Origin: Micromonospora sp. NBC_00389
GTDB lineage: Bacteria > Actinomycetota > Actinomycetes > Mycobacteriales > Micromonosporaceae
DNA: 64,000 nucleotides
Reading direction: 5' to 3'
NCBI RefSeq assembly: GCF_036059255.1
Contig: NZ_CP107947.1
Span: 7,626,001-7,690,000 of the forward strand
Position 1 is the stretch's first letter. Every line of letters begins with the position of its first letter. Made by a program: the position numbers and the translations under genes. Below the pieces are notes generated by a model. The model saw only the letters and a list, made by a program, of their open reading frames with translations. It had not been told where the DNA came from and did not search any database. Positions 28,481 to 35,756 of the stretch are shown here, in pieces.

Positions 28481-31309
28481 TCAGATCAGCCGCAGCTCAC
28501 GCGCCCGCCGGACCGCCTCACGCCGGCGGGTCGCGTCGAGCTTGCGGTAGATGTTGCGCACGTGGGTCTTCACCGTGTTGACCGAGAGCGACAGCTCGCT
28601 GGCGATCTCCACGTTGGACAGGATGCTCTGCAGGTAGCGCAGGATGGTCAACTCCCGCTCGGTGAGCGGCTCGTCGAGCGTACCCCCCGGTTCGGCCGCC
28701 GGCCGGGCCGTGGTCTGCTCGGCGCCCCGGATCAGGTCGCTGACCAGTGAGAAGTGTGCGGTGCCCGCATCGAGGTGCGCGGCCAACAGGTCCCGCACCG
28801 GCGGTTCGGCACGGGTGAAGACCCGCCGGCAGCCCTGCGGACCGGCCAGGTCGAGCACCTGCTCCAGGATCCGGCCGGCCCGACGCCCATCCCCACCCCG
28901 CTCGGCCAGCACCGCGTCCAGCAGTCCGGCGTCCAGGCGTACCGGCAGGGGCCAGGCCGCGGCCGGCAGCGCCTGCCAGTCCGGCAACGCCCGCCCGGCG
29001 GCGCCCGCGTCCCCGGCCCGCAGCTCCACCCGGGCCAGCGTGACCGCGAGTGCCGGAGCGGCCCCGTCCTCGGTGGCACCCGCCAGCAGGTCGCGGGCGG
29101 TGTCCAGGTCGCCCCGCTCGGCACGCAGGTCGGCCTCGGCGGCGCGCAGCAGGCTCGCCAACTCGGCGGCGGCCGGCCGGTCGGTCAACGACTCCCGGGC
29201 CCGGACGAGCAGCCGCTGGCCAGCGGCCGGGTCGCCGGCGTCGCGGTGCAGTTGGGCCCGACACAGCGCGGCCACCATGGCGGCCACCGGCTCGCCGGGC
29301 GGTCCCGCCGACCAGTCGTCCCCCGACTCCGCCTGCGCGGAGCCGGCAGGGCCGGTCGCCGGGGCGGCAAGGGCGAGGTTGGCCGCGGCCTCCTCGGACT
29401 GGTCACGATGCAGCGCCACGAGGGCCAGCGCCAGGTAGGCGTAGCCACAGTCGAGCCGGCAGGACCAGCCCTGGCGGGGCGGCGTGCCCAGCACGTCCCG
29501 GGCGGCCTGCTCGGCCGCGCGCAACTCGCCGCGCACCGCGAGAAGCAGCGCGCAGCGGCTCGCGGCGACCAGCTCCGTACGGGGCCGACCGGCCTCCCGG
29601 GCCGCCGCCCGGGCCCGGACGAACCGGGCGTGGGGCAGCGCACCGCCGGCCAGCTCGACCAACCCCAGCGCGGTACCCGTGAAGGCCCGCAGGTCCGCGT
29701 CCTCGGCAGCGCTGCCTCCCACGACGGTCTGCGCGGGGTTCGGCACACCGGTCGGCGTCGCCCCGGGCGGACGGGTCCGCAGCAGCCGGGCGGCGGCGGC
29801 CCGGACCTCCACCGGATCGTCGGCGAGCCGGGCCACGGTCAACTCCAGCGCGGTGGCCAGTCGCAGGAAACGGTCCCGGCGCGGCATCGGCAGGCCACCG
29901 GCGTACGCGGCGGCGGTACGCAGGTGACCGGTGGCCGCTGGCAGGTCACCGGCGTACGCCCGCTCGGCGGCGCAGGCCAGGGCAACCTCGGGATCGACGC
30001 GGACGACCTCCGGCGGTGGGGACCCGGGCGCCGGGCCGCTCACCGGCTCGCGGTCGTACCGGGTCAGCTCCGGCCAGTGCGCGACGAACAGGTCGCCGGC
30101 CCGATTCCACCGGCCGGCGGCCAGCGCATGCCAGAGCCCGTCGGCCGGGCGCCCGTCGCCGGCGTACCAGTCGGCCGCCCGCGCGTGCAGCTCGCGCAGC
30201 TCGTCGGCGGGCAGCCGGGCCAGCTCGGCCCGGAGGAGGTCGGCCAGCAGCGGGTCACAGCGGTACCAGGGCGGGCGGCTGTCCTCCCGGTGGAGCAGAC
30301 CGCCAGCCCCGGCCAGGTCGGCCAGCACCCGCCCGGCGTCGGCGCGGCCGGTCAACGCCTCGGCCAGGTCGGCGCAGACCGTCTCGGCGAGGGCGGTGCG
30401 GCGCAGCAGGTCCCGGTCGGCCGGCTCGATCTCGGCGAGCACCTCCTCGTGCAGGTAACCGGCGATTTCCGGTTGGTCGCCACCGAACTGCCCCACCCAG
30501 CGCTCCGGGTCCGGCTGCCCACGCAACGCCAACGCGGCGATGCGCAGCGCTGCCGGCCAGCCACCGCTGCGCTCGCGCAGACGGTGCACGGCGGTGGCCG
30601 GCAGCGGCGCGCCGTGCGCGGTGAGCAGGTCGGCCACCTCGTCGTCGGTGAAGGCCAGCTCGTCGGGGCCGATCTCGGTCAGCTCGCCGGCGAGGCGCAG
30701 CCGGTGCAGGGCCAGTGGCAGCCCGGCCCGGGCACCGACCACCAGGTGCAACCGCTGGTCGGCGTGCCGGAGCAGGAACTCCAGTCCGGTCAGCGCCGCC
30801 GGGTCGGCGACCCGGTGCAGGTCGTCCAGGACCAGCAGCACCGGTCGGTCGGAGGCGGCGAGCGCGGCGGCCAGTACTTCCAGCTGGTCGGGGCGTGGCG
30901 CCCGGTCGGGTACTGGCGCCAACGGGCCGTCGTCCGCCGGCCCGGTGGCCGCGCGCAGCGCCGCCGCCAGGTACGCCCAGAGCCGGTCGCCGTCGTCGCC
31001 AGCCTCCACCGACACCCACGCCGGCCCCGGTCCGGCCTCGGGCGTGCCAGCGGCCAGCCGTACCCAGGAGGCGAGCAGAGTGGTCTTGCCCCAGCCGGCG
31101 GGGGCGGCAACCAGGGTGACGGGTCCTGCGCTGCCCTCGTCGAGACTGCGCAGCAGCCGGGGCCGGGCCACCACCGGTTCGGGCGGCACGGCCGGGGTCA
31201 GCCGGGACGCCAGCAGCGGCGGGTCGGCTGGGCGCCCCGGCGCGGTGCCCACCCGCGCGCGATCCTGCTGTTCCGGCACCCGGCACCCACCCCCATCGAC
31301 GCGTTCCAC
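28481..31309 (-). CDS. Large MalT-like LuxR-family regulator (STAND ATPase)
   Basis: 942 residues. Order: N-terminal P-loop ATPase (Walker A APAGWGKTTLLASW near residue 70, Walker B VLLVLDDLHRV near 155), winged-helix and sensor region, a long Ala-rich TPR-like array (about 430-840), and a C-terminal LuxR helix-turn-helix (LTERELTILRYLQS, NVEIASELSLSVNTVKTHV). MalT-type proteins are activated by binding a small inducer plus ATP. The inducer and targets are unknown. No structural gene is directly coupled; the neighbours are the DsbA-type gene (convergent) and a small protein (divergent). Confidence 0.9.
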   Translation of the reverse strand: MERVDGGGCRVPEQQDRARVGTAPGRPADPPLLASRLTPAVPPEPVVARPRLLRSLDEGSAGPVTLVAAPAGWGKTTLLASWVRLAAGTPEAGPGPAWVSVEAGDDGDRLWAYLAAALRAATGPADDGPLAPVPDRAPRPDQLEVLAAALAASDRPVLLVLDDLHRVADPAALTGLEFLLRHADQRLHLVVGARAGLPLALHRLRLAGELTEIGPDELAFTDDEVADLLTAHGAPLPATAVHRLRERSGGWPAALRIAALALRGQPDPERWVGQFGGDQPEIAGYLHEEVLAEIEPADRDLLRRTALAETVCADLAEALTGRADAGRVLADLAGAGGLLHREDSRPPWYRCDPLLADLLRAELARLPADELRELHARAADWYAGDGRPADGLWHALAAGRWNRAGDLFVAHWPELTRYDREPVSGPAPGSPPPEVVRVDPEVALACAAERAYAGDLPAATGHLRTAAAYAGGLPMPRRDRFLRLATALELTVARLADDPVEVRAAAARLLRTRPPGATPTGVPNPAQTVVGGSAAEDADLRAFTGTALGLVELAGGALPHARFVRARAAAREAGRPRTELVAASRCALLLAVRGELRAAEQAARDVLGTPPRQGWSCRLDCGYAYLALALVALHRDQSEEAAANLALAAPATGPAGSAQAESGDDWSAGPPGEPVAAMVAALCRAQLHRDAGDPAAGQRLLVRARESLTDRPAAAELASLLRAAEADLRAERGDLDTARDLLAGATEDGAAPALAVTLARVELRAGDAGAAGRALPDWQALPAAAWPLPVRLDAGLLDAVLAERGGDGRRAGRILEQVLDLAGPQGCRRVFTRAEPPVRDLLAAHLDAGTAHFSLVSDLIRGAEQTTARPAAEPGGTLDEPLTERELTILRYLQSILSNVEIASELSLSVNTVKTHVRNIYRKLDATRRREAVRRARELRLI

Positions 31310-31933: not shown

Positions 31934-33190
31934 ATGGCTGGCGAGCGGACGTACGACGTGGTGCTGTTCGGCGCCACCGGGTTCACCGGAGGGCTGACCG
32001 CCGAATACCTGGCCCGGCACGCGCCACCCGGGCTGCGCTGGGCGCTGGCCGGGCGCAACCCGGATCGCCTCGCCGCCGTGCGGGGCCGGCTCGCCACGAT
32101 CGACCCGGCGCTGGCCGAGTTGCCGCTGCTCACCGCCGACGCGACCGACGCCGACTCGCTGGGCGCGGTGGCGGAGAGCGCCCGGGTGGTGGCCAGCACG
32201 GTCGGTCCGTACATCCACCACGGGGAGCCGCTCGTCGCCGCCTGCGCCCGCGCCGGCACCGACTACCTGGACATCACCGGTGAGTCGGAGTTCGTCGATC
32301 TGATGTACGTCCGCCATCACGCCGAGGCGACCCGCACCGGCGCGCGGCTGGTGCACACCTGCGGGTTCGACTCCATCCCGCACGACCTGGGCGTCTGGTT
32401 CACCGTCAAGCAGTTGCCGGCCGACGTGCCGATCACCGTGGACGGCTACGTGCGCGCCGGCGGCCGGTTCTCCGCTGGCACGTACCACTCCGCGCTCACC
32501 GCCTTTTCCCGCACCGGGCAGGCCAGCCGGGCGGCCCGGGACCGCCGGGCGGTCGAGCCGCGCCCCACCGACCGTCGGGTTCGGGCGGTGCCCGGCCGGC
32601 TGGCCCGCTCAGCGGAGCTGCGCATCTGGACCGTGCCGCTGCCCACCATCGACCCGCAGGTGGTCCGCCGCTCGGCGGCGGCCCGCCCGGAGTACGGCCC
32701 GGACTTCCGCTACCGGCACTTCGCCGCGGTGAAGCGGCTGCCGACGGTGCTGGCCAGCGCGGCGGGGCTCGGCGCGCTGGTCGGGCTCGTGAAGTTGCCG
32801 CCCACCCGGCGCTGGCTGCTCGGCCGGCTCGCCTCCGGGCAGGGGCCCACCGCGCAGCAGCGGGCGGCGTCCTGGTTCCGGGTCCGCTTCGTCGGCACCG
32901 GAGGCGGGCAACGGGTGGTCACCGAGGTGGCCGGCGGCGACCCGGGATACGACGAGACGGCGAAGATGCTCGCCGAGTCGGCGCTCTGCCTGGCGCTGGA
33001 CGAGCTGCCGCCGACCACCGGCCAGCTCACTCCGGTCGCCGCGATGGGCGATGCGCTGCTCGACCGGCTCATCCGCGCCGGGCTCACCTTCCGGGTGCTG
33101 AAGCAGGGGGCGACGGCGCCGGGTTCGGAAACAGCGCCGAAGCCGGGGCCGGAGGCGGCGCCGAAGCCGGAGGCCGGGGCGCCGGCTTGA
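31934..33190 (+). CDS. Saccharopine dehydrogenase-like trans-acting enoyl reductase
   Basis: 418 residues with an N-terminal NAD(P)-binding Rossmann fold (VVLFGATGFTGGLTAEYL) and the following family pattern (ALAGRNPDRL, GPYIHHGEPLVAACARAGTDY, HTCGFDSIPHDLGVW). This is the group to which mycobacterial Rv2953, an enoyl reductase acting in trans on polyketide synthases, belongs. A lipid-modifying reductase role is inferred; no polyketide synthase is near. The tail (after about 385) is a Pro/Ala/Lys repeat, probably disordered. Confidence 0.85.
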   Translation: MAGERTYDVVLFGATGFTGGLTAEYLARHAPPGLRWALAGRNPDRLAAVRGRLATIDPALAELPLLTADATDADSLGAVAESARVVASTVGPYIHHGEPLVAACARAGTDYLDITGESEFVDLMYVRHHAEATRTGARLVHTCGFDSIPHDLGVWFTVKQLPADVPITVDGYVRAGGRFSAGTYHSALTAFSRTGQASRAARDRRAVEPRPTDRRVRAVPGRLARSAELRIWTVPLPTIDPQVVRRSAAARPEYGPDFRYRHFAAVKRLPTVLASAAGLGALVGLVKLPPTRRWLLGRLASGQGPTAQQRAASWFRVRFVGTGGGQRVVTEVAGGDPGYDETAKMLAESALCLALDELPPTTGQLTPVAAMGDALLDRLIRAGLTFRVLKQGATAPGSETAPKPGPEAAPKPEAGAPA

Positions 33191-33215
33191 CCCTCGACCG
33201 GGTCGAGGGGGCAGG

Positions 33216-34358
33216 ATGCCCGGCGTGGAGAGCGACCTGCACAGCATCGGCGAGCTGGCCCGGGCCAGCGGCCTGACCGTCAGCGCGCTGCGCTTCTACG
33301 ACTCCGCGGGCGTGCTGGCGCCGGCCCTGGTGGACCCGGTCACCGGCTACCGCTGGTACACCGACGAGCAGATCGCCCCGGCCCGGCTGGTGGCCGGGCT
33401 GCGCCGGGTCGGTATGCCGGTGCCGGAGATCGCCGCGGCGGTACGCGCCGAGCCGGCGACGGTGCACCGGCTGCTCGACACGCACCTGCGCCGGCTGTCG
33501 GACGGGCTCGCCGACGCCCGGCGGGAGATCACCCGGCTCCGGGCGCTGGTCGACCCGGTGCCGCCGGCGACCACCACGCTGCTGCTCTCCCCCGCCGAGC
33601 TGGCCGCCGCCGTCGACGCGGTCCGCTTCGCCGTCGGCGCCGACCCGGAGTTGCCGGTGCTCTCCGGCGTGCTGCTCGACGTCGAGCCGGACGGCGTCCG
33701 GCTGGTCGCCACCGACCGGCACCGGCTCGCGCTGGCCCGGGCCGGGGCCAGCGTCGACGGGCCGCCGGTGCGGGTGCTCGTCGGAGTGGACCTGGTCGAT
33801 CGGCTCCGCACGCTGCTCGACGCCGCCGACGCCGGGCCGGTGCGGCTGACCGTGGCCGGCGCGGACCTGCGGGTCACGGTGGCCGGCCGGACGCTCGCGG
33901 GCACGGCCCTGCCCCACGACTTCCCCGACTACCGCCGGCTGCTGCGCGAGGCCGTCGGTGAGCGGCCGGGCGCGTACCGGATCCCGGTGGACGTGGCGGC
34001 GCTGCGGGCGGCGCTGACCGACCCGGCGGCCCCCACGGTGGCCCGCGAGTACGGCGGTGAGCCGCTGGCGGTCACCGTGCTCGGCCTCGACGACCGGGGC
34101 GGCCTGCGACTGCTCCCCGCCGCCGACATCCGCGCCGCCGACCTGTCCGCCGCCGGCCTGTCCCCGGACCCACTGGCGGGCCCCGACCCGGCGGGCGAGC
34201 TGCGGGTCGGGGTGAACAGTGGCTACCTGCTGGACGCGTTGGACGCGGCCGGCGCATCGCAGCTGGTGCTGGAGCTGGACGGGCCGATCGCGCCGCTGGC
34301 CGTACGCCGCCCGGACGATGCGGACACCTTCTCCGTGCTGATGCCGATCCGGCTCTGA
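33216..34358 (+). CDS. MerR-type DNA-binding domain fused to sliding-clamp (DnaN) domains II and III
   Basis: 380 residues. Residues 9-75 are a MerR helix-turn-helix and wing (SIGELARASGLTVSALRFYD, GYRWYTDEQ); 80-110 is the usual dimer helix. From about 121 the protein matches domains II and III of the DNA polymerase III beta clamp: VRLVATDRHRLALA (161-174, clamp ATDGHRLAV), FPDYRRLL (236-243), GVNSGYLLDAL (332-342) and the C-terminal VLMPIRL (374-380, clamp VMPMRL). Domain I is absent. Residues lining the clamp's peptide-binding cleft are largely kept. It may sense or recruit replication or repair proteins, or reuse the fold as a ligand sensor. GGGGGCAGG precedes the ATG; a GTG nine bases on is the alternative start. 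Confidence 0.85.
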   Translation: MPGVESDLHSIGELARASGLTVSALRFYDSAGVLAPALVDPVTGYRWYTDEQIAPARLVAGLRRVGMPVPEIAAAVRAEPATVHRLLDTHLRRLSDGLADARREITRLRALVDPVPPATTTLLLSPAELAAAVDAVRFAVGADPELPVLSGVLLDVEPDGVRLVATDRHRLALARAGASVDGPPVRVLVGVDLVDRLRTLLDAADAGPVRLTVAGADLRVTVAGRTLAGTALPHDFPDYRRLLREAVGERPGAYRIPVDVAALRAALTDPAAPTVAREYGGEPLAVTVLGLDDRGGLRLLPAADIRAADLSAAGLSPDPLAGPDPAGELRVGVNSGYLLDALDAAGASQLVLELDGPIAPLAVRRPDDADTFSVLMPIRL

Positions 34359-34430: not shown

Positions 34431-34472
34431 CTGGTGGTCCACCTGACCCCGGACGGAGGCGTACGGAGCAGC

Positions 34473-35756
34473 ATGCTCGACATGGAGTTGATCCGGAAGG
34501 ATCGCGAGGCGGTGGCGACCGCGCTGGCGAAGCGACTGGATCCCGCCGAGGTCGAACGGGCCCTGGACGAGATTCAGCGGCTCGACCAGGAGCGGCGCGC
34601 CCTGATCACGGAGATCGACGCCGAGCGGCAGCGCCGCAAGGCGGAGGCCCGGGCGTACGCGCAGGCGAAGCGCGCCGGCACCGAACCGCAGGCCACCGCG
34701 CCGGAGGCCGAGCGCAAGCAGCTCGCCGAGCTGGAGTCCCAGTTGGACGAGGTGCAGGCCCGGCTGCGTGACGCGATGAGCGAGCTGCCCAACCTGCCCA
34801 GCGATGACGTCCTGCCCGGCGGCAAGGAGGCCAACCGGGTCGTCAAGACCTTCGGTGAGCCGCCGGCCATCGAGAAGGTCCGCGACCACGTCGAGCTGTC
34901 CCGCGCGCTGGGCCTGGTCGACTACGAGCGCGGCGTCAAGCTCGGTGGCTCCGGCTTCTGGATCTACACCGGAGTCGGCGCGCGGCTGGAGTGGGCGCTG
35001 CTCAACTACTTCATCGACCAGCACATCAAGGCCGGGTACGAGTTCCTGCTCCCGCCGCACCTGCTGCTGGACTCGGCCGGCTTCGCCGCCGGGCAGTTCC
35101 CGAAGTTCTACGACGACGTCTACCACCTGGACAGGGAGTCCGCCCCGCGCGGGCAGTTCCTGCTGCCCACGTCGGAGACGGCGATCCTCGGCGCGTACCA
35201 GGACGAGATCCTGGAGACCTCGAAGCTGCCGCTGAAGGCGTTCGCCTACACCCCGTGCTACCGGCGGGAGTCGGCCGGCTCGCACTCTGACGAGCGTGGC
35301 ACGGTGCGCGGGCACCAGTTCAACAAGGTGGAGATCTTCCAGTTCACGCTGCCGGAGCAGGCCGACAGGGCGTTGGAGGAGATGCTCGCCCACGCCGAGA
35401 GCCTCGTCGAGGGGCTGGGCCTGCACTACCAGCGCACGCTGCTCTCCGCCGGTGACGCCAGCGCGTCGATGAAGAAGACCCTCGACATCGAGGTGTGGAT
35501 GCCGAGCACCGGCAAGTACAAGGAGGTCTCGTCGGTCTCCTGGGCCGGCGACTACCAGGCCCGCCGGGCGGCCATCCGCTACCGGGAGCCGGGCGGCAAG
35601 CAGACCCGCTTCGTGCACACCCTCAACGGTTCGGCGCTGGCCACCAGCCGGCTCTTCCCGGCCATTCTGGAGCAGTACCAGCAGGCCGACGGCTCCGTGC
35701 TGATCCCCGAGGTCCTCCGCGACCGGATGGGCACCGACCGGCTGACCCCCCGCTGA
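34473..35756 (+). CDS. serS: Seryl-tRNA synthetase
   Basis: Charges tRNA-Ser (and tRNA-Sec) with serine. 427 residues: an N-terminal antiparallel coiled coil (about 25-105) that grips the tRNA, then the class II catalytic core. Motif 2 reads PCYRRESAGSHSDERGTVRG and motif 3 is near TLNGSALATSRLFPAILE. Compared with the common bacterial form (FRxEAGSxGxDTRG, SSCSNCxxFQARR) the motif 2 loop and the stretch EVSSVSWAGDYQARR differ noticeably, so it might be a divergent or second copy. ATG at 34473 has GGAG five bases upstream. Whether it is the only serS cannot be judged here. Confidence 0.9.
   Translation: MLDMELIRKDREAVATALAKRLDPAEVERALDEIQRLDQERRALITEIDAERQRRKAEARAYAQAKRAGTEPQATAPEAERKQLAELESQLDEVQARLRDAMSELPNLPSDDVLPGGKEANRVVKTFGEPPAIEKVRDHVELSRALGLVDYERGVKLGGSGFWIYTGVGARLEWALLNYFIDQHIKAGYEFLLPPHLLLDSAGFAAGQFPKFYDDVYHLDRESAPRGQFLLPTSETAILGAYQDEILETSKLPLKAFAYTPCYRRESAGSHSDERGTVRGHQFNKVEIFQFTLPEQADRALEEMLAHAESLVEGLGLHYQRTLLSAGDASASMKKTLDIEVWMPSTGKYKEVSSVSWAGDYQARRAAIRYREPGGKQTRFVHTLNGSALATSRLFPAILEQYQQADGSVLIPEVLRDRMGTDRLTPR

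Follow-up and report, generated by a model that had tools for sequence, protein, structure and literature searches.

A MerR-type regulator fused to sliding-clamp domains II and III in Micromonospora, and the genes preceded by its predicted operator

Analysis of a 64,000-nucleotide stretch of the genome of Micromonospora sp. NBC_00389 (contig NZ_CP107947.1, positions 7,626,001 to 7,690,000; hereafter, the window) revealed a gene, MerR-clamp, in which a MerR-type DNA-binding domain is fused to domains II and III of the sliding clamp DnaN, with the protein-binding pocket of the clamp kept. The gene is preceded by a palindromic operator within a leaderless promoter layout, and the same operator is found upstream of a limited set of other genes. 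We consider it on balance probable that MerR-clamp is an autoregulated, drug-sensing MerR regulator, the sensor of which is a non-ring remnant of the clamp that mimics the target of the drug; our confidence in this reading is lowered because Streptomyces and a distant clade show no second targets with the patterns used. Database labels for the protein are limited to 'MerR family transcriptional regulator' or 'DNA polymerase III subunit beta family protein', and a literature search across titles and the openings of abstracts, with subscription papers mostly outside its range, yielded no published description of such a regulator.

The initial annotation had proposed a MerR DNA-binding domain joined to clamp domains II and III, with domain I missing, and this architecture was borne out by matches to Pfam models, PDB sequences and DnaN profiles (Table 1). 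At the N-terminus, the Pfam model MerR_1 matches residues 10-77 (E 1.7e-12) and the MerR model matches as well (E 1.9e-10), both above the cut-off, and among PDB sequences BmrR aligns with residues 6-81 or thereabouts (E 3.5e-12). The remainder of the protein matches DNA_pol3_beta_2 at residues 125-238 (E 5e-14) and DNA_pol3_beta_3 at residues 327-379 (E 3.6e-5; 24 bits against a gathering score of 27), and residues 123-380 match solved clamps with a best E of 2.2e-16. In a profile-profile comparison of 46 MerR-clamp relatives with seven DnaN proteins, family columns 118-358 aligned with DnaN 122-377 (probability 99.8, E 6e-30). Judging from these matches, domains II and III are both present (residues 118-380, approximately) and domain I is not: it was absent from the Pfam and profile-profile results, a weak PF00712 match overlapping domain II. 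A TipAS or GyrI-like domain was not found either, the Pfam matches up to E 1 being MerR, clamp and weak HTH models. The motifs ATDRHRLAL (residues 165-173), FPDYRRLL (236-243) and, at the C-terminus, VLMPIRL are positioned as originally described. Elsewhere in the genome, the clamp central domain occurs in a single further place, the ordinary dnaN.

Table 1. Coordinates of the MerR-clamp gene, its promoter and its domains within the window
Feature	Position	Strand	Remarks
-35 element TTGACC	33187..33192	+	overlaps TGA stop (33188-33190) of upstream gene
19-bp spacer with palindrome CCTCGACC-G-GGTCGAGG	33193..33211	+	palindrome arms from 33192
-10 box CAGGAT	33212..33217	+	
MerR-clamp ORF with ATG start, stop included	33216..34358	+	380 aa
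GTG, likelier leaderless start	33225..33227	+	377 aa; start codon 6-8 nt past -10 box in 30/30 genus relatives
MerR winged HTH, residues 10-77	33243..33446	+	Pfam
Clamp domain II, residues 125-238	33588..33929	+	Pfam and profile-profile
Pocket motif ATDRHRLAL, residues 165-173	33708..33734	+	
Pocket motif FPDYRRLL, residues 236-243	33921..33944	+	
Clamp domain III, Pfam-matched part, residues 327-379	34194..34352	+	Pfam; profile comparison spans whole domain III
Pocket motif MPIRL, residues 376-380	34341..34355	+	

The fusion is conserved and recurs in other actinomycete genera. Of 8000 candidates scored in a search with the MerR-clamp protein (P0001), 1292 reached E <= 0.001, and precomputed Pfam annotation places both the MerR and the clamp domains in all 120 of these relatives that were listed, which rules out a chance or broken chimera. 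Searches from Streptomyces and Nocardia relatives returned 2400 and 721 proteins, respectively, with clamp-only pieces of 257 aa accounting for two of the 120 proteins listed for the Nocardia relative. Relatives of the same architecture are found in Streptomyces, Nocardia, Rhodococcus, Saccharothrix, Amycolatopsis and Prauserella. The gene is present in 152 of 160 genomes of the genus Micromonospora (E <= 1e-40), in 113 of 200 genomes of the family (E <= 1e-20, a count that includes a few short MerR-only matches, such as that in G493) and in 11 of 396 genomes drawn from the phylum. One scan for viral relatives, using six peptide patterns, confirmed none.

The pocket of the E. coli clamp comprises 18 residues, according to the accessible text of PMC11139829. 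MerR-clamp is identical to the DnaN of its own genome at 13 of these 18 positions versus 42 of the 205 other aligned positions (Fisher 1e-5, with columns taken as independent), in agreement with the original suggestion that the cleft residues are largely kept. Conservation of the cleft among orthologues had been named beforehand as a point on which the idea could fail; in an alignment of 46 relatives, selected from 360 proteins returned by three relative searches and with an effective number of about 8, the mean entropy of the pocket columns is 1.08 bits versus 1.68 bits, and only 495 of 200000 random column sets were as low. Positions T172, G174, R176, P242, M362 and P363 are invariant in all 46 relatives, the G174 position being occupied by Arg both in the MerR-clamp family and in the genome's own DnaN. 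Arg365, which belongs to subsite II, is kept in 23/23 rows of Micromonospora and the closer Streptomyces proteins; in the distant clade, subsite II is largely lost and Arg365 is found in 4 of 23 rows. The alignment indicates that the protein-binding pocket between domains II and III is retained. A point against the drug-sensing reading is that, of the 21 near-invariant clamp columns, 15 are not part of the listed pocket. In the clamp, this pocket is the binding site of griselimycin and mycoplanecin A, with hydrogen bonds to Arg365 and a movement of Met362 (PMC10817943).

In MerR promoters, the operator typically lies within a long spacer, of 19-20 bp (PMC9909328), and a MerR-family palindromic operator is present between the -35 and -10 elements of MerR-clamp, in a spacer of 19 bp. 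A common layout (TTGACC, 19-bp palindromic spacer, -10 box and then the start codon) is shared by the upstream regions of MerR-clamp and ten relatives, in which the start codon stands 6-8 nt past the -10 box and, in a few, farther; the palindrome is weaker in the distant clade. The layout recurs upstream of the gene itself in 30/30 genus relatives and in 20/20 relatives from other genera, with matrix scores of 15 to 50, the latter 20 genomes being our own choice from 76 that carry the gene. Because the -10 box runs into the annotated ATG (33216-33218), translation more likely begins at the GTG at 33225, which is the start conserved among relatives, and the transcript would be leaderless. Matches to the core operator pattern number two in the window, versus 0.03 expected; the other (889-910, + strand, one mismatch) has GTGACC instead of TTGACC as its -35. 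By eye, the upstream gene (31934-33190, +), the stop codon of which overlaps the -35 element, is of the saccharopine-dehydrogenase type, the downstream gene (34434-35756, +) is seryl-tRNA synthetase-like, and a 942-aa ORF on the opposite strand (28481-31309, -) resembles a large regulator of the LuxR type, with an ATPase at its N-terminus.

Across the host genome, a strict operator pattern, allowing up to three mismatches, found two sites, and a relaxed pattern, allowing up to two, found seven, versus none for the reversed control. The five best sites precede MerR-clamp itself, the dnaA-dnaN (oriC) region and genes encoding an MFS transporter of 419 aa, a YunG protein (PF24585, E 2e-40) and a TPR-like protein of 160 aa; the MFS, YunG and TPR genes begin 6-7 nt past the -10 box. 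The two weakest sites both have two mismatches. One, L275, is probably a chance match, and the other, L274 (C1:3234754-3234784, - strand), is the related self operator of a different MerR gene; cross-talk between the two regulators is therefore possible.

The same gene families recur at operators in other genomes. The operator was found in 38 of 41 genus genomes, at 77 places (reversed control, 0), of which 49 were read (30 loci, 17 further regions and the host's own two sites). All of these except one (L066) precede MerR-clamp, either of two kinds of MFS gene, a TPR gene, a YunG gene or the dnaA-dnaN region, the self places having been compared with the genus-wide search for the gene. The first transporter kind, MFS_A, is similar to models of H+ antiporters and of macrolide/tetracycline efflux, with scores below the cut-offs; the second, MFS_B, is followed in several loci by a MarR-GNAT gene, and its start is not directly past the -10 box. 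The TPR matches are weak and below the cut-offs, and one operator-bearing YunG copy (L062) is short. Seven YunG sequences (L014, L056, L067, L241, L264, L270 and L290) keep Cys, His and Asp within the motifs QCGVTAL, HYWN (HWWN in L290) and DLT/DFT, which, as a guess from sequence, could form the Cys-His-Asp site of a peptidase-like enzyme. YunG, TPR and MFS relatives are again the genes that follow second sites in the family's other genera.

An exact operator search of named genomes gave at least 80 loci, and among those listed, 77 precede, by sequence match, MerR-clamp (54) or the named targets MFS_B (11), TPR (7), MFS_A (2), dnaN (2) and YunG (1). In L277, a MerR HTH is cut by the end of the locus, and nothing was recognised at the operator in L300 and L345, the latter a locus of just 105 bases that is of the origin type by eye. 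The Blastococcus locus L300 carries an exact operator with no recognised gene there and an MFS_A-like frame 1.2-2.5 kb upstream. The classified targets, namely, 48 of the 49 places read, 77 of the 80 loci listed and the sites in the host genome, included no recognised DNA-repair or SOS gene. In some of the listed loci, one operator precedes two genes: in Rhodococcus (L307, L308) it is followed by a TPR gene overlapping MerR-clamp, and in Oerskovia (L333) and a MAG (L306) by MFS_B and then MerR-clamp; in Geodermatophilus (L304), an MFS_B-like frame lies downstream of MerR-clamp. As read from these gene orders, operon links tie the same TPR and MFS partners to MerR-clamp by a second route.

With up to one mismatch allowed, the operator was found in 17 of the 20 gene-positive genomes of other genera versus 1 of 27 gene-negative family genomes, 19 of the latter being our own choice among genomes outside the genus without a match. 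Because the self site comes with the MerR-clamp gene, the count of second sites is the fairer comparison, and these were present in 11 of 20 versus 1 of 27 genomes (Fisher 9e-5, overstated as the genomes are related); the reversed-pattern controls gave 0. Among Streptomyces-type genomes, the operator was found in 4/4 with the closer gene type, in 0/2 with the distant type and in 0/3 without the gene. Those four contained self sites and no second targets, only self sites were seen for Streptomyces and Kitasatospora among the named-genome loci listed, and in the distant Nocardia and second Streptomyces clade a pattern built from self sites likewise found self sites only, in four of five gene-positive genomes. 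The possibility that second sites belong to neighbouring MerR genes was examined in 30 loci and not seen: a MerR-type HTH was not found near any of the 26 distinct sites, within a reach of about 1.5 kb where the locus was short and of 4-5 kb in most of the long loci (positive controls, 4/4). The predicted regulon is well supported in Micromonosporaceae.

The site in the dnaA-dnaN region has a narrower distribution. In the host genome, it lies about 95 bp past the dnaA stop, immediately ahead of the DnaA boxes and 690 bp from the dnaN start; the origin is located between the operator promoter and dnaN. A scan with a matrix built from self sites (score 20 or more) placed it 688-704 bp before dnaN in 46 of 52 gene-positive genus genomes (30/30 and 16/22) versus one of eight gene-negative ones (Fisher 3e-5, overstated as the genomes are related). 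The six gene-positive genomes without the site carry divergent MerR-clamp copies of 54-64% identity. The sole gene-negative genome with it (G643), in 590 contigs, has TGGACT as the -35 there and also a TPR site, and its MerR-clamp gene may be unassembled or recently lost. The origin site was found in none of 20 gene-positive genomes of other genera, none of 20 gene-negative family genomes (one of which, G606, is also among the eight above) and at none of 24 clamp loci from 22 genomes belonging to other families, nine with a MerR-clamp gene. We reject the operator at dnaA-dnaN as a general feature, since it was seen in Micromonospora only. In a subclade near the host strain (regions upstream of dnaN L098, L102, L103, L104, L105 and L210), TGGACT replaces TTGACC, as if the site were decaying.

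In the mechanism we propose, a MerR-clamp dimer would sit in the 19-bp spacer of its target promoters and keep them weak, until the pocket is occupied by a clamp binder such as those of the griselimycin or mycoplanecin type; the ligand-filled protein would then distort the DNA and turn on its own gene, the MFS exporters, the YunG protein and the TPR proteins and, in Micromonospora, also the dnaA-dnaN promoter facing oriC and dnaN. We infer that MerR-clamp binds these predicted operators and activates transcription, and that the ligand is a griselimycin-type clamp binder. The promoter at the origin might affect dnaN, origin activity or both. The full proposal, in which a decoy of the target serves as the receptor and couples clamp-binding natural products to a defence regulon (exporters, YunG perhaps acting on the drug, and TPR partners) and to the origin promoter facing dnaN, so that the drug would set clamp supply or origin activity, is tentative, and we regard it as plausible rather than probable.

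The leading alternative is that MerR-clamp senses the state of the clamp or replisome inside the cell; its pocket would bind the clamp-binding motifs of replication and repair proteins, or their free partners when clamps are short, and adjust dnaN supply or origin activity. The initial annotation had made a similar suggestion, that a clamp pocket might couple replication or damage to transcription. A MerR-type regulator, a conserved pocket and the operator that 46 of 52 gene-positive genus genomes have between dnaA and dnaN, beside the DnaA boxes, all fit that suggestion, whereas its link to damage found no counterpart among the classified targets, in which no repair gene was recognised. Moreover, the other targets include drug-exporter-like MFS transporters, and the dnaA-dnaN site is missing in 20/20 gene-positive genomes of other genera. 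The MFS, YunG and TPR targets point to a clamp-binding drug more than to polymerase or repair peptides, which are accordingly the less favoured ligand, and we consider an internal sensor unlikely.

In a further reading, distinctly improbable in our view, the signal is sensed elsewhere and the clamp half serves for docking or dimerisation with a different partner, for instance the TPR protein. In its favour are the Rhodococcus loci, where a single operator precedes overlapping genes for the TPR protein and MerR-clamp, and the many conserved clamp columns outside the pocket. Against it, conservation of the pocket columns exceeds that of random sets, a QLxLF-like clamp-binding motif occurs in 0 of 12 TPR sequences, and in Micromonospora the TPR gene is not adjacent to MerR-clamp. 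Finally, the unusual ring imagined by the initial annotation, a PCNA-like trimer on DNA with two clamp domains per chain and hence six in all, is hardly credible. MerR proteins act as dimers, and clamp domain I is absent. Furthermore, Ile272-Leu273, which pack in the dimer interface of the E. coli clamp (PMC11139829, accessible text), fall in an alignment gap in MerR-clamp, in a region where the alignment is uncertain.

If the drug-sensing reading is correct, MerR-clamp would be a sensor derived from the very target of the antibiotic that it detects, and a ready reporter for new clamp-targeting antibiotics, and its regulon a list of genes to test for coping with such compounds, among which griselimycins and mycoplanecins are anti-tuberculosis leads (as described in the available part of PMC10817943). 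The origin region at dnaA-dnaN would also be linked to a transcription factor that descends in part from the clamp.

MerR-clamp resembles DnaN in having its domains II and III and the majority of its pocket residues, but lacks domain I, leaves the dimer-interface residues unaligned and is fused to a DNA-binding domain. BlaR1 and MecR1 are antibiotic receptors with a sensor that resembles the drug's target or a drug-inactivating enzyme; like the proposed MerR-clamp, they would exemplify a target-like antibiotic sensor, but they are membrane receptor-proteases, unrelated in family and mechanism. GriR and MypR, second DnaN proteins that act as resistant targets in the griselimycin and mycoplanecin clusters, are likewise clamp-derived and, in the portion of the source available, tied to clamp-binding antibiotics (PMC10817943); unlike these complete DnaN proteins of biosynthetic clusters, MerR-clamp holds a two-domain fragment within a regulator and is encoded between a dehydrogenase-like gene and serS. 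One genus genome that also carries MerR-clamp (G430) encodes a second full-length clamp (C1:2030268-2031380, - strand), 60% identical to its own DnaN, which is possibly, by analogy with GriR, a resistant-target copy. The closest parallels are the multidrug regulators TipA (PMC7762955) and BmrR, which have a MerR HTH, an operator in a 19-bp spacer (PMC9909328), a layout implying autoregulation, drug-exporter-like targets and a C-terminal sensor domain. In MerR-clamp, predicted operators stand before its own gene and before MFS genes, and autoregulation with an exporter gene as target may apply there too. MerR-clamp differs from both in having a site at dnaA-dnaN and a sliding-clamp fragment in place of the TipAS or GyrI-like sensor, and with a MerR protein on long-spacer promoters, exporter-like targets and a clamp pocket as the sensor, a receptor working by target mimicry would be the simplest reading.
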